Made by a program: the position numbers and the translations under genes
Origin: Bacteroidota bacterium
GTDB lineage: Bacteria > Bacteroidota > Ignavibacteria > UBA10030
Length of the DNA: 47,448 nt
NCBI GenBank assembly: GCA_015661185.1
Contig: JACVXU010000001.1
Location: 1 to 47,448 of the forward strand
Reading direction: 5' to 3'
Notes under the pieces: generated by a model
What the model was told of the DNA's origin: nothing
Database searches by the model: none
The model's input: only the letters and a program-made list of their open reading frames with translations
Shown: piece by piece, positions 7,573-22,495 of the stretch
Position numbering within the stretch: position 1 is the stretch's first letter
Layout: every line of letters begins with the position of its first letter

Positions 7573-8292
7573 TCAACTATGGCGAAGAGGGGGCGGCATA
7601 CCCACGACCCACATCCAGGGCCAAAGATCGGGTGCGTTGGCTAATCCATGCTTCAAAGCGTTACTGTAAATGTAATCGATGTGGTTGTCAAAATCTCTTT
7701 GATCTCGGATAAGGTGGTCCCGGAAGGATTTCTGCCAGCGGAAATGCGGGAAATCGATGGCCGCAGTCGTATTCGCGTCGAAGCTCTGACGGATCGATTC
7801 TAGGTGATCAAAGTGGTTCTTGTACGTATCGAAGGTGAGATGAGGATGCTTTTGTTTCGTGGCTTGAAAATTACGTTGTAGACGACGATTCGAATCGTCG
7901 TCTACAGAAACATCGGAATCGTCGTCCACAGATACATTCGAATCGTCCCCTTCGGATGGAAGGTGGAGGTTGCGCACGAAAGGGTGTCCCGAAATCAGAT
8001 CGTTGATATCACGAGTGACATTCCGTTTCAATGATTCTACGGCCGCAGAACAATTCGATTCACCGAGTGGTTGGAACAGAATATGAACATGCTCGGGCAT
8101 CACCGTGTAGCCAAGAAGCTCAAGTTCCTTCAGTTCGCAGGCAAACCAGAGGTCTTCGACAAACAACCGGGCGAAATGAGATGAAGTGAAGTAGGGGTAA
8201 CGCTCGTGGGTTATCGAGGTGACGAAGTACTCGGCCCCTTCAACATAGAATCGCTTCTGGTGTGGACGGTGATGAAGAGTTCTGAAGCGCAC
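7573..8292 (-). CDS. REP-associated tyrosine transposase (RAYT, TnpA_REP; HUH Y1 family)
   Basis: YTVMPEHVHILFQP HUH motif, C-terminal DNHIDYIYSNALKHGLA with candidate catalytic Tyr; contains an in-frame acidic repeat insert. Confidence 0.88.
   Translation of the reverse strand: MRFRTLHHRPHQKRFYVEGAEYFVTSITHERYPYFTSSHFARLFVEDLWFACELKELELLGYTVMPEHVHILFQPLGESNCSAAVESLKRNVTRDINDLISGHPFVRNLHLPSEGDDSNVSVDDDSDVSVDDDSNRRLQRNFQATKQKHPHLTFDTYKNHFDHLESIRQSFDANTTAAIDFPHFRWQKSFRDHLIRDQRDFDNHIDYIYSNALKHGLANAPDLWPWMWVVGMPPPLRHS
7877..7906. repeat. 30-bp perfect palindrome TGTAGACGACGATTC|GAATCGTCGTCTACA inside the RAYT coding sequence
   Basis: The reverse complement is identical; contains GTAG at the stem foot, as in known REP elements. 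Confidence 0.9.
7892..7948. repeat. 24-bp tandem repeat (two units plus a partial third) inside the RAYT CDS
   Basis: GAATCGTCGTCTACAGAAACATCG / GAATCGTCGTCCACAGATACATTC (20/24 identical) / GAATCGTC; encodes DDDSNVSV-like octapeptides on the minus strand. Confidence 0.88.
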
Positions 8293-11225: not shown

Positions 11226-12179
11226 ATGGCAAAAAGACAATTCGTTGTAGGGATGGACGGTGGAGCGACGAAGACCGCCGCTATGCTCAGCGATTTGGCT
11301 GGCCAGGTCCTGGCGGAAGAAACTGGCGGCCCGAGCAATCCGCAGGTTGTCGGTGCTGAAAAATCCGCGGATGTCATCGTCGATCTCCTTGAAAAACTGT
11401 GCAGCAAAGCGAAGTGCGGAACCAACGAGGTCCTTTTCACCGTCGCCGGACTTGCCGGAGCCGGTCGCGAAGGAGACAAAGAACGTGTTCGGTTGGCTGC
11501 AGTGGCAGTGGCAAAGAAACGTAAGCTGGCGATTGGGAAAGTTCGTATCGAGAGCGATGGAAGAATCTCGCTCGAGGGGGCTTTCAAGGGCCGGTTGGGT
11601 ATCATCCTGATTGCAGGGACGGGCTCGTTCTCATTGGCGAAGGATCACAAGGGAGGAATCCATCGCGCGGGAGGATGGGGAAGGGTTGTTGGTGATGAAG
11701 GAAGTGGCTATGTTATTGGCCGCGATGGCCTGAACGCTGTGGCGAAGCATCTTGACGGGCGCGGAAAAGCGACAATGTTGACGAAGCTTGTCGATGAGCG
11801 ACTCGGTCTCTCGAATCAGGAGAAGATCATAAGTGGCGTGTACAGGGAGAACTTCGACGTCGCCAAAGTGGCGCCGCTTGTGATTGAAGCGGCTGAGGGG
11901 AAAGACACAGAGTGTGCGCGAATTCTGAACAAGGCTACATTCGAGCTTTTTGAACATGTGCGGACGCTGGTGAATAAGATCGAGCAATCGTCACGCGCCC
12001 GGTCAAAAATATCCCTTTCGTTCATTGGCAGCCTGATCAGTAACGACAATATTTATCGGAAAATCCTGACTAACAAGATTACATTCTCTTTGCCCCAGGT
12101 CAATGTCATTGCTCCTGAAACGCCGCCGGCGTACGGAGCTGTCCTTCTATCCATCCAATCGGCCCAGGAACAGCTATGA
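11226..12179 (+). CDS. BadF/BadG/BcrA/BcrD-family ATPase; N-acetylglucosamine / N-acetylmuramic acid kinase-like
   Basis: [21 protein letters not shown] phosphate-1 motif, [33 protein letters not shown], typical of GlcNAc-kinase-like members. Confidence 0.88.
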
Positions 12180-13648
12180 GTGTGATTTCTGTCGCTCTTC
12201 CGTTCTCCACACAACCCCATTTCGAGTCTATTCTTCGTCAATTCATTGACTCACCCCTCGTAGAGAAGATCTTTGTTATCCATTCCGGCCAATATTCCGG
12301 CAGGCATGACAAATGCGAGGGATTCCTCTCCCATACGCTGACTGCCGGCACGACGTTGAACACGATCCTGAAAAGGATTACGTCGGACTATTTTCTTTTC
12401 ATTACGCAATCGCAGGAGATTCAGCTCGGTCAGGCGGCGCTGGAGCGGTTTGTCGGAATCGCTCAGCAGACGTCCTCCGGCATGTGCTACTCCGACTTTT
12501 TCGAGATCAAGAAGGGGGTGCGGACGGAGCGGCCGGTGATTGATTGTCAGTTTGGCAGCGTGCGTGACAACTTCGAATTCGGAGCGTTGCTCTTCTTCTC
12601 AATGGCAGCGGTCCGGGCTGCCCTGAAGAAGTGCGGCGATCTTGCTGCTGTCGATGTCGCCGGGCTCTATGACCTTCGGCTGAAGGTGTCCGTCGATCAC
12701 AGTCTCTTTCATGTGCAGGAGTACCTCTACACGAAAGTCGAATCCGATTTGCGTCTGACCGGGGAGAAACTCTTCGACTACGTCGATCCCAGGAACCAGG
12801 CCGCTCAGAAAGAAATGGAAGCGGTCGTGACGCAGCATCTGAAACACGTCAATGTCTATCTTGCGCCCAACTTCAAATCCATCCCGGCTTCTGAAGACAC
12901 ATTCCCGGTTGAAGCAAGTGTTGTCATTCCTGTCCGGGACCGTGAGCACACGATTGCGGATGCCGTCCTGAGTGCCCTTCAACAGAAGTTTGACCAGGCC
13001 TTCAATGTCATCGTTGTTGATAATCACTCGTCCGATGGGACGACCAGGATCATGGAGGATCTCGCTGCACGGCACCCGGCAGTGAAACACATCATCCCGA
13101 CCCGGCATGATCTTGGCATCGGCGGATGCTGGAACGAAGCTGTATTCTCAGTCCATTGTGGACGCTATGCTGTTCAACTCGATTCCGATGACATCTATAG
13201 CGGACCCGACACATTGCGGAAGATCGTCGACGTGTTCCGGAGTGGCCAGTACGCGATGGTGATCGGCTCCTACAAACTCGTCAATATGAAACTTGAGGAA
13301 CTCCCGCCGGGCATCATAGATCATCGCGAATGGACACCCGACAACGGCCGGAACAATGCGCTGAGAATCAATGGCCTCGGAGCGCCGCGGGCGTTCAACA
13401 CGTCGCTGCTCAGAACGGTGAGACTGCCAAACGTGAGCTACGGCGAGGACTACGCGGTTGCGCTCCAATTGTCCCGTGAGTATCAGATCGGGAGGATCTT
13501 CGAACCTCTGTATCTCTGTCGCCGGTGGGAGGGGAACACCGACGCAGCGCTCTCGATCGAGAGAGCGAATCGCTACGATGTTTATAAAGACAAGATTCGC
13601 ACCATTGAAATGATGGCTCGCCAACGCCTCAATCATCAAGGAGAATAG
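12176..13648 (+). CDS. Glycosyltransferase family 2 protein with two GT-A-like modules
   Basis: 4-nt overlap (ATGA) with the kinase. C-terminal module: [24 protein letters not shown]...[12 protein letters not shown]...[10 protein letters not shown]-terminal ~250 aa resembles a degenerate GT-A module. Confidence 0.88.
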
Positions 13649-13649
13649 C

Positions 13650-14159
13650 ATGGCACAACTCGTTCGTCGCTGGACACTCGATGATCTAACAGTTATTCAG
13701 GAAGTCCTCTGGAAGACGTGGCTCGATTCCTATTCGCATTTCATTCCGGAGGAGGACCTGAAAAGCTATTTCTCGGAGCATTACGACCGTGACTCATTGA
13801 GAACGTTGTTTCACAACCCCCTGGCTGACGGTTTCGTGGCACTTGATGACGAAAAGGTGGCTGGATTCATGAGGACGGCCCGCGATACCGAGGAGAACCG
13901 ATACTACGTCTCTTCCATTTACGTCCTCCCGCAATTTCAGGGGAGAAAAATTGGAAAGGCGCTGATGGAACGTGCCGGGCAGGAGGCAAAAGCCTTCAAG
14001 CTCGACCGGATCTGGATAGGAGTCATGGTGCAGAACACCCAGGCTGTGGACTGGTACAAGTCGATGGGGTATGAAGTTGTTCGCACAGAGCCGTTCACGA
14101 TGGGAAAATCGACCGTCGATCATTACATTGGATTTGTCAAGATCGATTCGCTACGCTGA
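13650..14159 (+). CDS. GNAT family N-acetyltransferase
   Basis: YYVSSIYVLPQFQGRKIGKALMERAGQEAKAFKLDRIWIGVMVQNTQAVDWYKSMGYEVV acetyl-CoA-binding and Gcn5 motifs. Confidence 0.93.
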   Translation: MAQLVRRWTLDDLTVIQEVLWKTWLDSYSHFIPEEDLKSYFSEHYDRDSLRTLFHNPLADGFVALDDEKVAGFMRTARDTEENRYYVSSIYVLPQFQGRKIGKALMERAGQEAKAFKLDRIWIGVMVQNTQAVDWYKSMGYEVVRTEPFTMGKSTVDHYIGFVKIDSLR

Positions 14160-14221
14160 GGAAGCGGTCTCCGCGAGAGGAAAGCCTGCCCTCGCTGCAC
14201 AATCAGATCGTTGAGAAAACC

Positions 14222-14260
14222 CGAAATCCTTTGCCGAAATCCTTTGCCAAAATCCTTTGA
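14222..14260. repeat. Three tandem copies of a 13-bp unit (CGAAATCCTTTGC) running into the DUF4922-like gene start
   Basis: CGAAATCCTTTGC/CGAAATCCTTTGC/CAAAATCCTTTGA read directly. Confidence 0.92.
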
Positions 14261-15243
14261 TTGACCCCAAGATTTTCGCCGTATTCGATCTGAAGTCCCC
14301 GAAGAGCTCGCTCCCTGAGCTCGCGGTGAGGCTGCTCGACGGGCAGAAAGAGACGTGGCCGCAGCTGACCGCAGGGTACTCGTCGCTTGACTCGATCCGG
14401 CTGCGCGAGGTCCGGTGTGGAGGCTATTCGGTCTGGCTTCAGTTCAATCCCGGCCGCATCGTCAGCACCGGGGCAAAGGTTGATGCCCAGTCTATCAGAG
14501 AACGCCGGTGTTTCCTCTGTGTGCAAAACCTTCCTGCGGCGCAGAACGGAATCCTGTACCGGGATGAATTCCTGATACTCTGCAATCCCGCCCCGATTTT
14601 CCGTGAGCACTTCACGATCTCACACGTCGATCATGTTCCGCAGTTGTTCAGCAACTCTGTTGTCCGGTTTCTGGAGCTCGCCCGCGATCTGAGTCCGCGG
14701 TACACCGTCTTCTATAACGGTCCGAGGTGCGGGGCTTCGGCTCCCGACCACATGCACTTCCAGGCGAGCCCTTCCGGAACAATACCTGTGGAAGAAGCGG
14801 CACGCGAAAAAAGCCGGCGAATGCGCAGAAAGCATGTCCGGGGTGTGGAAATTCTGACGCTCGCAGATTTCGGTCGGGAAGTCATCGTCCTCGAATCTCA
14901 GCAGATCGAACGTCTCGGGCACGTCCTGCTCGATCTCCTCGAAGCGCTCCCCGCCGCTACGGGCACAAAGGAAGAGCCGATGATGAACCTGCTCTGCTCG
15001 TATGGCGATTCCGCGTGGCGGGTGATCCTGTTCCCGAGAAGCAAACATCGTCCCGATGCATATTTCAAGGAGGGGGATGAGCGCATTCTCATAAGCCCGG
15101 CGGCGGTTGACATTGGCGGACTGATCGTCACTCCGCTGGAAAAGGACTTCAACACTGTCGACGCAAGAACCGTTGAAGGGATCTTTCGTGAAGTGAGCAT
15201 CCCGCAAGCGACGGTGGAAGCGGCGATAGAAGAACTTTCCTGA
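14257..15243 (+). CDS. DUF4922-like protein with HIT/GalT-superfamily (nucleotide phosphorylase/nucleotidyltransferase)-like signature
   Basis: RRCFLCVQNLPAAQNGILYRDEFLILCNPAPIFREHFTISHVDHVPQ and CGASAPDHMHFQASPSGTIPVEE (HxHxQ-type motif). TTG start as listed; true start uncertain. Confidence 0.72.
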   Translation: MIDPKIFAVFDLKSPKSSLPELAVRLLDGQKETWPQLTAGYSSLDSIRLREVRCGGYSVWLQFNPGRIVSTGAKVDAQSIRERRCFLCVQNLPAAQNGILYRDEFLILCNPAPIFREHFTISHVDHVPQLFSNSVVRFLELARDLSPRYTVFYNGPRCGASAPDHMHFQASPSGTIPVEEAAREKSRRMRRKHVRGVEILTLADFGREVIVLESQQIERLGHVLLDLLEALPAATGTKEEPMMNLLCSYGDSAWRVILFPRSKHRPDAYFKEGDERILISPAAVDIGGLIVTPLEKDFNTVDARTVEGIFREVSIPQATVEAAIEELS

Positions 15244-15265
15244 TCAACAACATGTACTTAAAGAC

Positions 15266-16600
15266 ATGATCAAAGAAGAACCGAGAATAAACGTTGGTGT
15301 CGTCGAGCATGCGCGCGAAATCCAGGGCGTGTTCAATGGCCCGTTCGAACTCCCGACGAGTGTTCGTCTGGAAGGAGCTTTCACGGCTCGCCTTGTGGGC
15401 GATCGCGTCGTGCTGTTCGACAACGAGGGAATAGAAGTGATGAAAGGGACCGAGATCGTTTGCCGGCCTCTCCGAAGCGGGACATTCACGCTGAAAGGAG
15501 TAACGATCGGAATCAACTTTCATTGGGAACGCAAGGAAGACCAGACGTTTGAGGGGGCACTTTGCCTGCTTTCTTCTCCAGACGGATCAATGACGGCGAT
15601 CAATGAGATAAGCGTTGAAAACTACTTGAAAAGTGTCATATCATCCGAGATGAGTGCAGAGGCTCCCCTTGAGCTGCTCAAAGCGCACGCGATTACCTCG
15701 CGGAGCTGGCTGGTGGCGATGCTCGAGAAGCAAATGCGTGGAAAGAATGTTGGCGCACCGGCGCTTCGGACGCGGGAGACCGGCTCGGAAGTCGTCCGTT
15801 GGTACGATCGGGAAGATCATACTTCTTTCGATGTCTGTGCAGACGACCACTGCCAGCGCTATCAGGGGATCACGAAAATCATCTCGTCCAGGGCTCAGGA
15901 GGCAATCGACGTGACCCGTGGTTCGTTCCTTGTCCATGAGGAAGAGATTTGTGACGCGCGGTACTACAAAGCATGCGGTGGCTTGACAGAATGCTTCGAG
16001 AACGTCTGGGAAGACACGGCGGTGTCCTACTTGCAGACGGTCTCCGACTCAGAGCACCCGCATCCTGCGATCGCCACTGAAACTGACGCCCGCCGGTGGA
16101 TTCTCTCGTCGCCCGATGCATACTGCAACACCACGGATGCGGAGGTGCTGAGGCAGATCCTTCCGTCGTTCGATCAGGAGACCGCCGATTTCTTCCGATG
16201 GCGTATCGAATACTCGCGTGAAGAACTGGAGCGAATCGTCGGGAAAAAATCCGGCATCGACTTCGGGACGATCACGGATTTGGTACCAATGCAAAGGGGT
16301 CCCTCCGGTCGAATCATCCGGTTGAAGATTGTGGGGACAAAAAAGGTTATCGTGGTGGGAAAAGAACTGGAGGTGCGCCGCTGGTTGTCGAACAGCCATC
16401 TCTATAGTTCTGCTTTTGTCGTTGACACAGAGCGTGATCGGGATGGAGTGCCAACGCGGTTCACACTGCGCGGAGCGGGATGGGGGCACGGTGTTGGTTT
16501 GTGCCAGATTGGCGCTGCCGTGATGGCGGCACGCGGAAAGAAGGCGGAAGAGATCGTCCTGCATTATTTCCGAGGTGCCCGGGTGCAGAGGCTGTACTAA
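15266..16600 (+). CDS. SpoIID/LytB domain protein (lytic transglycosylase-like), no obvious N-terminal signal peptide
   Basis: VENYLKSVISSEMSAEAPLELLKAHAITSRSWL (catalytic Glu context), YYKACGGLTECFENVW, GWGHGVGLCQIGAAVMAARGKKAEEIVLHYFRGARV. Confidence 0.9.
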   Translation: MIKEEPRINVGVVEHAREIQGVFNGPFELPTSVRLEGAFTARLVGDRVVLFDNEGIEVMKGTEIVCRPLRSGTFTLKGVTIGINFHWERKEDQTFEGALCLLSSPDGSMTAINEISVENYLKSVISSEMSAEAPLELLKAHAITSRSWLVAMLEKQMRGKNVGAPALRTRETGSEVVRWYDREDHTSFDVCADDHCQRYQGITKIISSRAQEAIDVTRGSFLVHEEEICDARYYKACGGLTECFENVWEDTAVSYLQTVSDSEHPHPAIATETDARRWILSSPDAYCNTTDAEVLRQILPSFDQETADFFRWRIEYSREELERIVGKKSGIDFGTITDLVPMQRGPSGRIIRLKIVGTKKVIVVGKELEVRRWLSNSHLYSSAFVVDTERDRDGVPTRFTLRGAGWGHGVGLCQIGAAVMAARGKKAEEIVLHYFRGARVQRLY

Positions 16601-16625
16601 ACTGATTCTCAGAGAGGGATCGCAG

Positions 16626-17921
16626 ATGGAAACGAGCAAACCCAATTACCGACAGCCTTGGGCATGGGTACCCAGTTTGTATTTTGCCCAGGGTATCCCA
16701 TACGTCGTTGCTCAGACTGTTTCCGTGATAATGTACAAGCGTTTGGGAATCTCAAATACCGACATTGCCTTCTATACGAGCTTGTTGTATCTCCCCTGGG
16801 TCATCAAACCGTTGTGGAGTCCCTTCGTCGACATGTTCTCCACGAAACGCTTGTGGACTGTCGCATTGCAGTTCGTTATGGGGCTGGCACTTGCCGTCGT
16901 CGCTATCGTTCTGCCTCTCCCCTCATTCTTCACATGGACCCTTGCGATATTTTGGTTGTTGGCTTTTTTTTCAGCCACGCACGATATCGCGGCGGATGGA
17001 TTCTACATGCTTGCCCTGGATCCGCATCAACAGGCGGCATTCGTGGGTGTGAGAAGCACCTTCTACCGGATAGCAATGATCACAGGTTCCGGCCTCCTGG
17101 TGATGCTGGCTGGCCACATTGAATCGAGTAGTGGAGGCAACATCCCTCTTGCCTGGTCTGTCACGTTCGGTGCACTTGCGGGACTTTTCCTGCTCTTCTT
17201 TGCGTATCACAAATTGATGTTGCCCTATCCGATAGTGGACAAACCAACGCTCGTTGACAAATCGAGGTCGGTTTGGCAGGAGTTCGCGCAAACTTTTGTC
17301 ATCTTCTTCAAGAAGAAAGATGTCGTTTCTATTCTCGCTTTTCTTCTGTTCTACCGATTTGCTGAGGCTCAGTTGGTTAAGCTCGTCTCTCCGTTTCTGC
17401 TCGATCCGAGGGATAAAGGGGGGCTCGGGCTCTCGACAGGTGAGGTCGGCATCGTGTACGGTACTGTGGGTATCATCGCGCTGACGCTGGGTGGACTCCT
17501 TGGAGGATACGTTGTCTCAAAGAATGGTTTGAAATACTGGCTCTGGATTATGGTCTTTTCCATCCATTTGCCCGACCTGATGTTTGTGTATCTTTCCCAG
17601 GTTCAACCTGAGAATTTCCTCCTCGTCAATATCGCTGTGGCGATCGAACAATTCGGCTACGGCTTCGGGTTCACTGCGTACATGCTCTATATGATCATTG
17701 TGTCCGCGGGTGATCATAAGACGGCACACTACGCGATCTGTACCGGCTTCATGGCCCTCGGAATGATGGGACCCGGGATGCTGAGCGGGTACTTGCAGGA
17801 GTTCTTGGGTTATAAGAACTTTTTCCTGTGGGTAATCGTTGCCACGATTCCGGGATTTCTTGTCGCTGCATTCGCGAAGATAGATCCACTCTTTGGCAGG
17901 AAAGTCGCGCAGACGCAGTAA
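16626..17921 (+). CDS. AmpG-like MFS transporter (muropeptide permease family)
   Basis: PWAWVPSLYFAQGIPYVVAQTVSVIMYKRLGISNTDIAFYTSLLYLPWVIKPLWSPFVD plus DIAADGFYM. Start placed at the internal ATG 16626 preceded by GAGAGGGAT. Confidence 0.88.
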   Translation: METSKPNYRQPWAWVPSLYFAQGIPYVVAQTVSVIMYKRLGISNTDIAFYTSLLYLPWVIKPLWSPFVDMFSTKRLWTVALQFVMGLALAVVAIVLPLPSFFTWTLAIFWLLAFFSATHDIAADGFYMLALDPHQQAAFVGVRSTFYRIAMITGSGLLVMLAGHIESSSGGNIPLAWSVTFGALAGLFLLFFAYHKLMLPYPIVDKPTLVDKSRSVWQEFAQTFVIFFKKKDVVSILAFLLFYRFAEAQLVKLVSPFLLDPRDKGGLGLSTGEVGIVYGTVGIIALTLGGLLGGYVVSKNGLKYWLWIMVFSIHLPDLMFVYLSQVQPENFLLVNIAVAIEQFGYGFGFTAYMLYMIIVSAGDHKTAHYAICTGFMALGMMGPGMLSGYLQEFLGYKNFFLWVIVATIPGFLVAAFAKIDPLFGRKVAQTQ

Positions 17922-18001
17922 TGATCTGGATTGATTCTGTAGACTTTGCTGTGTACCTTTCACAATATTTTTTGCCACATATATTCTCCAGGGAGATTGA
18001 A

Positions 18002-20911
18002 GTGCTATCATACCGCGTTCGAACGAACGTTTGCCGGATGCTGTTGACGGGGATATTGCCCCTTATTCTAACTGCTTCACTTGCAAGCGCTCGCGGCGCT
18101 CAGCAACTTCCCGCCAAGTCACTCCAGGCCACCACACCGGCGGCAAGCACAGGCGACGATTGGGTCGAATCGACTCTCAAGCGCCTCACGCTGGAAGAGA
18201 AAGTAGCACAACTCGTTTTCCCGTCGACTCAAGGCTCTTACCATGCAGAGGATTCAGAGACCTGGCGGGAACTCGAACGCTTGATTGTCAATCGCAAGGT
18301 CGGCGGGCTCGTTCTTTCAATTGGTGATGTGTACGAGTATGCTGTCCAGTTGAACAAGATCCAGAAACTGGCGGATGTCCCTCTGCTTGTTGCCGGAGAC
18401 TTCGAGTATGGAGTAGCGATGCGTGTGCCGCGCGCAACTGCGTTCCCGCGGGCAATGGCCATCGGAGCCACGAGAAATGCCCGCTACGCGTACCAGGTCG
18501 GGCGTGTGACGGCAAATGAAGGCCGGGCACTTGGCGTCCATCAGAACTACGCCCCGACGATCGATGTCAACAACAACCCACGCAATCCCGTGATCAACAC
18601 CCGCTCCTTTGGTGATGACGTGAGTCTCGTGAGTGATATGGGAGCGGCGTACGTCAAGGGGACGCAAGATGGTGGAATGATATCGACCGTTAAGCACTTT
18701 CCCGGACACGGAGACACGGACGTCGATACGCATCTTGGTCTGGTGACGCTCAATTTCGACAAGAAGCACTTTGATCAAGTCGAATTGCCTCCGTTCAAGG
18801 CTGCCATCAAGAGTGGGGCCATGTCGGTGATGGTCGGACACATCGCTGTCCCGGCATTCGACACCGCCGCTGGGATCCCCGCAACCGTCTCCCTAAAGAT
18901 CACGACGGAACTGCTGCGCAACGAACTCAAGTTCGACGGTCTCATTGTGACCGACGCCATGAGAATGCGCGGTGTCTCTGCAAAATATGCTGCGGGAGAA
19001 GCTTCCGTCCTGGCCTTCAAGGCCGGTTCCGACATCGTGCTGATGCCGACGGATATCGATGTGGCAATCGACGCGATCATCGCTTCTGTGAAGCGAGGAG
19101 AGATTCCTGAGGAGCGAATCGATGCGTCGTTGCGCAAACTCCTGAAGGCGAAACAATGGGCGGGACTTGACAAGAATCGATCCGTGGATGTCGACAAGAT
19201 CGCCGGCGTTGTCGGCTCACGTGAGCACGAGCTGCTCGCGAGGAAAGTCGCGCGTAACGCCGTCACCGTGCTCGGCAACAAGAAAGAGGTTCTTCCCCTC
19301 TCTCCGACCGATACGAGGAAGATCCTTGACCTGGTGATTGCCGATACCGAAGATCCCAGAGAGGGGCGACGTTTCCACTCGCTTCTGAGGGAACGTCGCA
19401 ATAACGTGGATTTCGCCAAGGTCGATCCCCGGAGCAATGAACTCGAATACGATTCAATCACCGAGAGTGCGAAGAGTGCCGATATCATCCTCTGCCAGCT
19501 GCAACTGACCACGCGCTCGGGCGAAATGACGGGCTTCATCAGCGCCAGGCAAAAGAGTTTTCTGTCCCGACTCGCTTCGCTCGGCAAGCCAATCGTAGCC
19601 ATCGCTTTCGGTAATCCTTATGTTGTGATGGATCTCCCGAAGGTGGAATCATACGTCTGCGCTTATTCGAGCACAGATGTTATGCAGGAAGCCGTTGCCG
19701 AAGTGTTGTTCGCTGAAGAACCTGCTGTGGGGAAACTCCCGATTACGATCCCGGGTATCTACAACTTTGGCGATGGCGTCGAGTATCCGAAGATGAGGTT
19801 TCGGAGAGGTCTGCCGGAAGAGGTGGGATTCACGAGCGGAGGGCTCGCCAACGTCGATGCAGTCATTGAACAGGCAATCCGCGACTCATCCTTCCCGGGA
19901 GCCGTGCTGCTGATTGCGAAGGACGGAATCATCGTTCACGAAAAGGCATATGGATCATACGACTACGAGCCGTACTCAAGGCGCACCGATGTCAATAGCA
20001 TGTTCGACCTCGCTTCGGTCACGAAGGTGATCTCGACAACGAGTGCCATGATGCGCCTTGTCGGTGAAGGAAAGGTGAAACTTGAAGACCCCGTGGTCAA
20101 ATACATCCCGAAGTTCGGGCAGAACGGAAAGGAACACATCACGCTCTACAACCTGTTGGTGCACAACTCAGGACTCGTTGGCTGGCGAAAGTTTTACGAA
20201 CTCGGCAAGAACCCTCAGGAATTGCTTGATACGATTTTCGCGGCACGCCTGATGTATAGAACAGGGGATTCGACCATCTACAGCGATCTCGGATTGATCA
20301 CGACCGGCAAGATCATCGAGAAAGTCACAGGGACGTCGCTCGACAGGTTTGTGGATTCGGTGTTCTTCAAACCGCTTGGGATGTTGAGTACGATGTTCAA
20401 TCCGCCTGAGAGGTTGTGGAACCGTGTCATGCCGACGGAGGTTGATACGTACTGGCGCAAGACGGGAACCGCTGTGCGCGGAACTGTGCACGATGAGAAC
20501 GCATGGGCTCTCGGCGGTGTCGCGGGCCACGCCGGCCTGTTTTCGACGGCGCCCAACCTGGCCATCCTCCTCCAGATGGAACTCAACGGTGGGACGTATG
20601 GTGGAAAGAGATATCTAAGCGAGGATGTCATCCGTCAGTTTACGACGCGGCAATCGGAGAAAAGCACACGCGGCATCGGTTGGGACATGAAGCCGCCGTC
20701 ACGCTCATGGGCGGGCACGTTGTTGTCCACCAGGACATTCCTTCATACGGGGTTCACCGGGACGTCCGTAGCCGCAGATCCGACGCGAAACCTGATCATT
20801 GTTTTCCTGACCAATCGGGTCTATCCCACGAGGGCAAGTCAGAAGATTAATGCAGTCCGGCCTCAAGTGCACGATGCTGTGGTTAGTGCACTGAACCAGG
20901 AACAGAAGTAA
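18002..20911 (+). CDS. NagZ-like GH3 beta-N-acetylglucosaminidase fused to a C-terminal serine hydrolase (beta-lactamase/AmiE-like) domain; exported
   Basis: KHFPGHGDTDVDTHLGL and IVTDAMRMRGV (NagZ signatures); C-terminal FPGAVLLIAKDG, DLASVTK (SxxK), YSDLGLI. GTG at 18002 with upstream AGGGAG gives MLSYRVRTNVCRMLLTGILPLILTASLASA; ORF-track start 17828 overlaps the MFS gene. Confidence 0.92.
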   Translation: MLSYRVRTNVCRMLLTGILPLILTASLASARGAQQLPAKSLQATTPAASTGDDWVESTLKRLTLEEKVAQLVFPSTQGSYHAEDSETWRELERLIVNRKVGGLVLSIGDVYEYAVQLNKIQKLADVPLLVAGDFEYGVAMRVPRATAFPRAMAIGATRNARYAYQVGRVTANEGRALGVHQNYAPTIDVNNNPRNPVINTRSFGDDVSLVSDMGAAYVKGTQDGGMISTVKHFPGHGDTDVDTHLGLVTLNFDKKHFDQVELPPFKAAIKSGAMSVMVGHIAVPAFDTAAGIPATVSLKITTELLRNELKFDGLIVTDAMRMRGVSAKYAAGEASVLAFKAGSDIVLMPTDIDVAIDAIIASVKRGEIPEERIDASLRKLLKAKQWAGLDKNRSVDVDKIAGVVGSREHELLARKVARNAVTVLGNKKEVLPLSPTDTRKILDLVIADTEDPREGRRFHSLLRERRNNVDFAKVDPRSNELEYDSITESAKSADIILCQLQLTTRSGEMTGFISARQKSFLSRLASLGKPIVAIAFGNPYVVMDLPKVESYVCAYSSTDVMQEAVAEVLFAEEPAVGKLPITIPGIYNFGDGVEYPKMRFRRGLPEEVGFTSGGLANVDAVIEQAIRDSSFPGAVLLIAKDGIIVHEKAYGSYDYEPYSRRTDVNSMFDLASVTKVISTTSAMMRLVGEGKVKLEDPVVKYIPKFGQNGKEHITLYNLLVHNSGLVGWRKFYELGKNPQELLDTIFAARLMYRTGDSTIYSDLGLITTGKIIEKVTGTSLDRFVDSVFFKPLGMLSTMFNPPERLWNRVMPTEVDTYWRKTGTAVRGTVHDENAWALGGVAGHAGLFSTAPNLAILLQMELNGGTYGGKRYLSEDVIRQFTTRQSEKSTRGIGWDMKPPSRSWAGTLLSTRTFLHTGFTGTSVAADPTRNLIIVFLTNRVYPTRASQKINAVRPQVHDAVVSALNQEQK

Positions 20912-20938: not shown

Positions 20939-22495
20939 ATGGCAATCCCGACATTCAAGAATGAACCCTTAACCGATTTCACGAAACCGGCGAACCGCAG
21001 AGCGATGGAGAAAGCTCTCGCCAAAGTGAAGTCGATGCTTGGAAGAGAATATCCGATCGTTATGGGTGAGGAAGAGATCCTTACCCAGGACAAGTTCAAC
21101 TCCTACAACCCATCCAGCCCGGCTGAGATCATCGGTGTCTTCCAGAAGGCGGATGCAGCGTTGGCGGACAAAGCAGTGGAGACGGCTGCGGCGAAGTTTG
21201 AAGAATGGAAATGGGTTGAGCCTAAGAAGCGGGCGGAGTACCTCTTCAAGGCAGCGAAGATCATGCGGAAACGCAAGCATGAATTCAGCGCCGTGATGGT
21301 CTACGAAGTTGGAAAGACGTGGCCCGAAGCCGACGCCGATACCGCTGAAGCGATCGACTTTCTGGAGTTCTATGCCCGCGAGATGCTGCGCTATGCGTCG
21401 AAACAGCCTGTCACAAAAATCCCGAAGGAAAAGAACGAGCTTGTGTATATCCCGCTCGGAGTCGGCGTCGTCGTTCCGCCGTGGAATTTTGCGCTCGCCA
21501 TCCTCGCCGGCATGTCTTCTGCGGCAATTGTCTGCGGCAATACCATCGTTCTCAAGCCCTCGAGCGACTCTCCGTTGACCGGTTGGATGTACTTCGAGCT
21601 GATGCGCGAAGTTGGGATCCCCGCCGGAGTGATTAACTTCGTCTCCGGACCTGGCGGCTCCTTTGGCAACGCGATCGTCGCTCATCCGAAGACCCGGTTC
21701 ATCTCCTTCACAGGATCGAAGGAGGTCGGGATCCATGTCAATGAACTTGCAGCGAAGGTCCAGCCGGGCCAGAAGTGGCTGAAGCGCGTGATCGCGGAAA
21801 TGGGCGGCAAAGATTCCATTGTGATCGACGAGCAGACAAACCTTGAAGCAGCGGCGCAGGCCACGATTGCGTCGGCGTTCGGCTTCCAGGGACAGAAATG
21901 CTCGGCCGCGTCCCGGGCAATCGTCGTCGAGAAAGTGTACGACAAATTTGTGGATTTGATCAAAGAGAAGGCCTCGAAAATCAAAGTCGGACAATCCGAT
22001 GACCCTGCGAATTATATGGGCCCTGTGATCAACGAAAGTTCGCATCGGAAAATACTCGCGTACATCGAGAAAGGGATTCAAGAGGGGGGGCGATTGATCG
22101 CCGGCGGCTCCAAAGCCCCAGGTGACGGATATTTCATTCAGGCGACCGTTATCGCTGACGTTCACCCAAAGTCGACCATCTCCCAGGAGGAGATTTTTGG
22201 TCCCGTGCTCGCGATCATCAAGGCAAAGGATTTCAGCAACGCGCTGGAAATCGCGAACGATACGGAGTTTGGTTTGACCGGTGGCGTGTGGACGAACAAT
22301 CGAAAGAAGATTGAGAAAGCGAAGAAGGAATTCCACGTGGGCAACTTCTACATAAATCGAAAAATCACCGGTGCGATGGTGGGAGTTCACCCGTTCGGCG
22401 GTTTCAATATGTCGGGTACCGACTCGAAAGCCGGCGGAAGAGACTACCTGCTCCTGATGATGCAGGCAAAGTCGATTTCAGAAAAAGTGAAGTGA
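20939..22495 (+). CDS. pruA/rocA: L-glutamate gamma-semialdehyde (1-pyrroline-5-carboxylate) dehydrogenase
   Basis: 518 aa aldehyde dehydrogenase; FVSGPGGSFGNAIVAHPKTRFISFTGSKEVG, GFQGQKCSAASRAIV catalytic Cys, typical P5CDH N-terminus. Confidence 0.93.
   Translation: MAIPTFKNEPLTDFTKPANRRAMEKALAKVKSMLGREYPIVMGEEEILTQDKFNSYNPSSPAEIIGVFQKADAALADKAVETAAAKFEEWKWVEPKKRAEYLFKAAKIMRKRKHEFSAVMVYEVGKTWPEADADTAEAIDFLEFYAREMLRYASKQPVTKIPKEKNELVYIPLGVGVVVPPWNFALAILAGMSSAAIVCGNTIVLKPSSDSPLTGWMYFELMREVGIPAGVINFVSGPGGSFGNAIVAHPKTRFISFTGSKEVGIHVNELAAKVQPGQKWLKRVIAEMGGKDSIVIDEQTNLEAAAQATIASAFGFQGQKCSAASRAIVVEKVYDKFVDLIKEKASKIKVGQSDDPANYMGPVINESSHRKILAYIEKGIQEGGRLIAGGSKAPGDGYFIQATVIADVHPKSTISQEEIFGPVLAIIKAKDFSNALEIANDTEFGLTGGVWTNNRKKIEKAKKEFHVGNFYINRKITGAMVGVHPFGGFNMSGTDSKAGGRDYLLLMMQAKSISEKVK

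Follow-up and report, generated by a model that had tools for sequence, protein, structure and literature searches.

A candidate peptidoglycan-salvage operon of Ignavibacteria pairs a tandem-domain glycosyltransferase with a DUF4922 protein

Introduction

Peptidoglycan recycling outside the Proteobacteria is poorly known, and a run of seven genes in an Ignavibacteria genome raises the question of which enzymes handle wall fragments after their import. The genes occupy positions 11226–20911 of the 47 448-nucleotide stretch analysed here (contig JACVXU010000001.1, assembly GCA_015661185.1; hereafter the window), which belongs to a draft genome of 4.33 Mb in 445 contigs, rated 99% complete. They encode, in order, a BadF-family sugar kinase, a family 2 glycosyltransferase (GT2), a GNAT acetyltransferase, a DUF4922 protein, a SpoIID/LytB-like protein, an AmpG-like permease and a NagZ–AmiE-like fusion, each family being assigned by Pfam or NCBIfam matches. 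All seven open reading frames (ORFs) lie on the plus strand and are tightly packed: kinase and GT2 overlap by 4 nt, and the gaps that follow measure 1, 97, 22, roughly 25 and roughly 116 nt. An earlier note on this DNA had described just such a co-directional cluster for peptidoglycan salvage, and had proposed that GT2, GNAT and DUF4922 replace known recycling enzymes. The description holds; the replacement is not supported. On computed evidence of gene content, conservation and fusion, of folds and conserved active sites, and of predicted location, we propose with a probability of about one half that the genes form a peptidoglycan-salvage operon. Cytosolic SpoIID, GT2 and DUF4922 would process the disaccharide imported by AmpG upstream of the N-acetylmuramic acid (MurNAc) branch, GT2 and DUF4922 sharing a nucleoside diphosphate sugar (NDP-sugar).

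Conservation of the cluster

Most or all of the cluster genes occur together again in 20 related genomes (those whose DUF4922 loci were read out). In several of these the order is altered, for example with AmpG ahead of GT2 or the kinase behind AmpG, an argument for functional coupling rather than common descent as a single block. Chance falls far short of explaining the cluster. The core recurs in 80 named loci of several classes, picked by DUF4922 in a scan of the collection; their taxa include Ignavibacteria, Bacteroidales (Bacteroides, Dysgonomonas, Marinilabilia, Labilibaculum), Balneolales and Deltaproteobacteria/Syntrophaceae. The salvage cluster of the earlier note is thus a conserved gene set, both in relatives and in several classes.

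Within the 80 loci, GT2 lies at most 400 nt upstream of DUF4922 on the same strand in 56 and is fused to it in six, so that 62 have the two adjacent or fused. Ten carry GT2 elsewhere in the locus and eight have none, three of these with less than 1.5 kb upstream. Presence of DUF4922 and of full-length GT2 is concordant in 58 of 61 related genomes, the three discordant ones (G012, G022, G054) all being due to contig ends, and cluster-type AmpG goes along with the pair. The commonest further partners of GT2–DUF4922 in the 80 loci are AmpG and SpoIID; in loci chosen by DUF4922 the pair is the best-conserved part across classes, and the kinase and NagZ vary. DUF4922 is also fused to GNAT, in L049 as a single frame of 507 residues and again in three deltaproteobacterial loci (L058, L060 and L063). 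The two kinds of fusion place GT2, GNAT and DUF4922 in one process, as had been supposed, and the repeated fusions together with the near-perfect co-occurrence argue for a shared pathway of DUF4922 and GT2.

Two further arrangements were seen. In genome G050 the cluster is split over the contig pair C74/C100, with GT2 and AmpG on one contig and DUF4922 and SpoIID on the other. A gene for a D-Ala-D-Ala carboxypeptidase-type M15 peptidase, another cell-wall link, follows GT2–DUF4922 in L083 (10891–11475) and in 13 other deltaproteobacterial loci.

The DUF4922, GT2 and GNAT proteins

The DUF4922 protein (14257–15243; PF16269, 1.2e-55) gave just a weak profile match to solved structures prior to the fold search (Apa2, E 0.0025). 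Its structure model has a mean predicted local distance difference test score (pLDDT) of 95.9. The best solved match in Foldseek is the yeast Ap4A phosphorylase Apa2 (E 2.7e-11, template modelling scores 0.55/0.61), followed by a DUF4931 protein, At5g18200 and GalT (GalT E about 1e-4). The active-site motif S-A-P-D-H-x-H-F-Q is intact: H165 and H167 are present in all 94 sequences and Q169 in 93. An HxHxQ pattern marks covalent nucleotidyl-histidine enzymes, as established for GalT. A CxxC pair (C85, C88), H118 and H126 are also kept and are reminiscent of the GalT zinc site. DUF4922 shares with Apa2, At5g18200 and GalT both the fold and an HxHxQ motif preceded by a conserved serine, and we predict with high confidence that it has the GalT/Ap4A-phosphorylase fold of the HIT superfamily. 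It differs from Apa2 in sequence (15–18% identity), and some bacteria have it as a fusion with GT2 or GNAT. We infer from the model that it is an enzyme of nucleotidyl transfer or phosphorolysis, the class named in the earlier note, which is upheld at the level of fold. In the literature DUF4922 turned up only in plant work on GDP-L-galactose phosphorylase.

The GT2 protein (12176–13648; PF00535, 1.8e-19) was modelled with a pLDDT of 92.9 as two GT-A domains, in keeping with the tandem glycosyltransferase originally described, and Foldseek matched it to K4 chondroitin polymerase (4.7e-22). Both that enzyme and heparosan synthase have two GT-A domains in tandem. In the protein described here, by contrast, the catalytic motifs are confined to the C-terminal domain, where column counts show DSDD, ED and RRW in 80 of 80 relatives, and the N-terminal domain has lost its DXD. 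GT2 is therefore likely to have a single active site, which by these motifs would lie in the C-terminal domain.

The PaiA-like GNAT acetyltransferase (13650–14159; PF00583, 2.9e-20; PaiA profile match, 4.7e-28) separates the two. Bacteroides versions of the operon encode an HGSNAT-like membrane acetyltransferase (L125, 17663–18811), which is possibly its functional equivalent, both being amine acetyltransferases.

Predicted cell location of SpoIID, AmpG and NagZ

The SpoIID/LytB lytic-transglycosylase-like protein (15266–16600; 2.7e-22; TIGR02669, 162 bits against a cut-off of 83.3) is the single SpoIID match in the whole genome, and its conserved SEM segment aligns with solved SpoIID. The SpoIID proteins of spore formers are exported or membrane-anchored. 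In contrast, neither the window protein nor the relatives read out, Bacteroidales included, showed a signal peptide or a hydrophobic N-terminus. They begin directly at a conserved E-P-x-I-x-V-G segment, and the highest hydrophobicity among them (2.17, in L048) falls in that segment itself. Lacking a signal peptide, SpoIID should be cytoplasmic, as judged by N-terminal inspection and hydrophobicity rather than by a trained predictor. A literature search found no paper on a cytoplasmic SpoIID.

The AmpG-like MFS permease (16626–17921) matches TIGR00901 with 175.5 bits against a cut-off of 350, a match at subfamily level. Its start is probably the in-frame methionine at 16626; the listed ORF began at 16575. 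The functionally tested AmpG of Tannerella forsythia has 27% identity to E. coli AmpG (PMC7670621). Elsewhere in the window genome lies another AmpG-like gene, a paralogue with 42% identity to the cluster copy (G000, C197, 4359–5582). In two loci of the window's genus (L037, 4914–6764; L039, 5204–7063) the AmpG-like frame reaches about 620 residues instead of 433, a predicted periplasmic loop being enlarged by an insert of some 150 residues that the window copy does not have.

The last gene of the cluster (18038–20911) encodes an exported GH3 NagZ fused to a beta-lactamase-fold, AmiE-like domain (PF00933, 2.5e-84; PF00144, 9.4e-59). It probably starts at the in-frame methionine at 18038, which yields a signal peptide. 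Its closest solved relative is B. subtilis YbbD/NagZ (259 bits), which is likewise exported and has an amidase partner, although there NagZ and AmiE are separate proteins. RmNag3 of Rhodothermus marinus is also an exported GH3 beta-N-acetylglucosaminidase with a C-terminal beta-lactamase domain, but it lies outside such a cluster, and R. marinus is reported to be without AmpG (PMC6987092). A KHFPGHGDT motif is present in both NagZ-type GH3 proteins of the genome (the window copy and one on contig C315). On inspection both carry an export signal at the N-terminus, so that a cytosolic NagZ was not found among the GH3 proteins of the genome; the GH20 and GH84 hexosaminidases were not searched. 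The cytosolic partners of AmpG encoded by the cluster would then be SpoIID, GT2, DUF4922, GNAT and the kinase.

The kinase and the downstream branch

The sugar kinase (11226–12179; PF01869, 1.3e-38) has as its closest solved relative the MurNAc/N-acetylglucosamine (GlcNAc) kinase 8zo3 (133 bits with the single sequence, 230 bits with a profile) and is predicted to be a MurK/NagK-like, MurK-type MurNAc/GlcNAc kinase. The product of MurK is a 6-phosphate, whereas NDP-sugars require a 1-phosphate. The idea that an NDP-sugar is made straight from the kinase product is thus unlikely as it was put.

The earlier note had found MurU/AmgK, MurQ and AnmK missing, which is correct for the window. The genome, however, encodes MurQ (contig C314), as do most relatives, and AnmK (C218 and C87). 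AmgK and MurU were not found in the genome: the APH matches reached 3.9e-6 at best and lay mostly within large open frames, and the best MurU-type match, within a frame of 852 residues, scored 119 bits against a cut-off of 250. The genome shares AnmK and MurQ with E. coli-type recycling, but not the cytosolic NagZ. There are also seven matches to NamZ-type exo-muramidases in the genome (G000 C84, C280, C140, C161, C411 and C65), compared with one per genome in several related families.

Elsewhere the pair is seen with either branch. In L125 it lies next to MurK and MurQ; in about ten loci AmgK/MurU-like genes are nearby, among them the Syntrophaceae locus L062, with the order AmpG, MurU-like, AmgK-like, unknown, LeuS, LptE and a GT2–DUF4922 fusion. 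Scores in L062 fall under the curated cut-offs (111 against 250 and 91 against 550), so these genes are called only AmgK-like and MurU-like. GT2–DUF4922 therefore fits both branches and should act before them. Its co-occurrence with both led us to reject DUF4922 as a replacement of MurU or MurQ, and with MurQ and AnmK present in the genome the idea that GT2, DUF4922 and GNAT stand in for the known enzymes is not supported. Replacement of AnmK by the cluster was considered separately: AnmK is absent from 19 of 40 carriers and from 3 of 21 non-carriers (p 0.012, or 0.020 when counted by genus), yet the association is gone within the window's family (p 1.0). It may be a lineage effect only and was not used. 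The available part of a mycobacterial preprint on unusual MurNAc recycling contains nothing that indicates these genes.

Relation to the Tannerella and Bacteroides operon

Clusters of this kind are already known. In T. forsythia the genes for xanthan lyase, gtf, gtf, lytB, ampG, ybbC, murT, murK and murQ are co-transcribed as the operon Tanf_08345–08385, and the cluster described here is a lineage variant of it whose context is already published (PMC5388701). AmpG of T. forsythia, encoded in the corresponding operon, imports GlcNAc-anhydro-MurNAc (GlcNAc-anhMurNAc) and GlcNAc-MurNAc; how these fragments are handled in the cytoplasm was stated to be open, and no AnmK is predicted (PMC7670621). 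In Bacteroides graminisolvens (L125) the order is golvesin-domain protein, metallophosphoesterase, GT2, DUF4922, SpoIID, AmpG, NamZ, FAD oxidase, HGSNAT-like protein, BadF kinase and MurQ. From the position of this equivalent, the second T. forsythia gtf (Tanf_08355) is likely to be a DUF4922 gene. A GT2–DUF4922–SpoIID–AmpG run is also present in L112, L102, L107 and L108, and the window order GT2–GNAT–DUF4922–SpoIID–AmpG is this same run with GNAT inserted.

The T. forsythia operon and the cluster in the window share a glycosyltransferase, a second GT-like gene, lytB (SpoIID) and ampG in the same order, and a BadF kinase. The cluster differs in that NamZ and MurQ lie outside it (MurQ on C314, NamZ on other contigs), that its seven genes include no MurT (beyond them the genome was not searched for one) and that GNAT and the exported NagZ–AmiE fusion are added; its kinase resembles the 8zo3 MurNAc/GlcNAc kinase more closely than it does T. 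forsythia MurK. What is new here is the middle of the cluster: the GT2–DUF4922 pairing, the DUF4922 fold, the state of the GT2 domains, the signal-less SpoIID and the exported NagZ.

Proposed mechanism and alternatives

We suggest that wall fragments are trimmed in the periplasm by the exported NagZ–AmiE protein, together with NamZ proteins from other parts of the genome, and that AmpG brings in disaccharides such as GlcNAc-MurNAc and GlcNAc-anhMurNAc. Signal-less SpoIID, GT2 and DUF4922, plus GNAT in this lineage, would process the imported disaccharide in the cytoplasm. DUF4922 and GT2 would be coupled, an NDP-sugar made or consumed by one being consumed or made by the other. The freed MurNAc would enter the MurK–MurQ catabolic branch here and AmgK–MurU in other bacteria. 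In this scheme the substrate, the nucleotide, the reaction direction and the order of steps are what we infer. The proposal names three conserved cytoplasmic candidates beside AmpG (signal-less SpoIID, GT2 and DUF4922), with a chemistry class for DUF4922 backed at fold level and a GT2–DUF4922 partnership shown by fusions. It narrows the question of cytoplasmic processing in T. forsythia to a few gene deletions and enzyme assays; abundant gut bacteria belong to the group concerned.

A more specific form, which we regard as unlikely, has GT2 and DUF4922 acting in the cytoplasm as a nucleotide-dependent two-enzyme phosphorylase for wall disaccharides. GT2 working in reverse would move GlcNAc from GlcNAc-(anh)MurNAc onto NDP, and DUF4922 would use phosphate to cleave NDP-GlcNAc to GlcNAc-1-phosphate and NDP, signal-less SpoIID dealing with the anhydro end. 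The net reaction would convert disaccharide and phosphate to GlcNAc-1-phosphate and (anh)MurNAc. In a variant running in the synthetic direction, DUF4922 would regenerate the NDP-sugar from NDP and sugar-1-phosphate. If true, the phosphorylase would allow salvage without a cytosolic NagZ, with the bond energy conserved.

Several points weigh against salvage. We know of no activity for DUF4922 or for the cluster-type GT2, and AmpG scores below its cut-off. The gap in cytosolic hexosaminidase left by NagZ may not be real, given the scope of the search, and periplasmic NagZ could strip GlcNAc ahead of import. In some Ignavibacteria loci a GT4-family gene separates SpoIID from DUF4922; at least in L095 no GT2 was seen and a GT4-family gene precedes DUF4922. 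The Bacteroides operon versions contain a golvesin/xanthan-lyase gene. Earlier T. forsythia work, as far as it is cited in PMC5388701, labelled the operon glycosylation-related. The operon could serve glycan synthesis instead. Only a few of the named loci are from Bacteroidales, and T. forsythia is known here from papers rather than examined itself.

The main rival is accordingly a synthetic direction, which we consider possible but clearly less probable than salvage. Starting from a sugar-1-phosphate that stems from amino sugars of the wall, DUF4922 would make an NDP-sugar, which GT2 would use to modify a surface glycan, a glycolipid or a protein, while GNAT would acetylate an amino sugar, so that wall sugars are reused for a glycoconjugate. 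The GalT/phosphorylase fold of DUF4922, the predicted active domain and glycosaminoglycan-synthase-like fold of GT2, the GNAT–DUF4922 fusions and the additional GT4 gene of some loci are all consistent with this. Yet the kinase is of the MurNAc/GlcNAc type, for which a 6-phosphate is expected; the cluster has no conserved gene for a dedicated mutase, a flippase or polymer export; and AmpG and SpoIID are the most frequent other partners.

It is improbable that DUF4922 is a housekeeping clearance enzyme, a phosphorylase of Ap4A or of stray NDP-sugars comparable to human GDPGP1, whose neighbours are co-kept only through envelope-stress regulation. GDP-glucose phosphorylase is a known repair enzyme, and the top fold match is an Ap4A phosphorylase, but the repeated fusions to GT2 and GNAT and the near-perfect co-occurrence with GT2 argue for a pathway in common. 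Plain E. coli-type recycling by AmpG, NagZ, AnmK and MurK/MurQ, with GT2, GNAT and DUF4922 as unrelated passengers, would account for MurQ and AnmK in the genome and for AmpG, NagZ and the kinase as standard parts, but is improbable given that GT2–DUF4922, in loci chosen by DUF4922, outlasts the kinase and NagZ across classes and that the window NagZ is exported rather than cytosolic.

Flanking genes

Scans for promoters and terminators scored close to chance and were not used. An L-glutamate gamma-semialdehyde dehydrogenase gene (20939–22495, plus strand; TIGR01237, 727 bits) lies 27 nt 3' of NagZ, followed by sucC and gatB. It adjoins the cluster in several relatives and is probably outside the pathway, though kept as a neighbour within the lineage. 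On the minus strand, an ORF of 239 residues at 7573–8292 (beginning MPEHVHIL) resembles, by motif only, a REP-associated tyrosine transposase.

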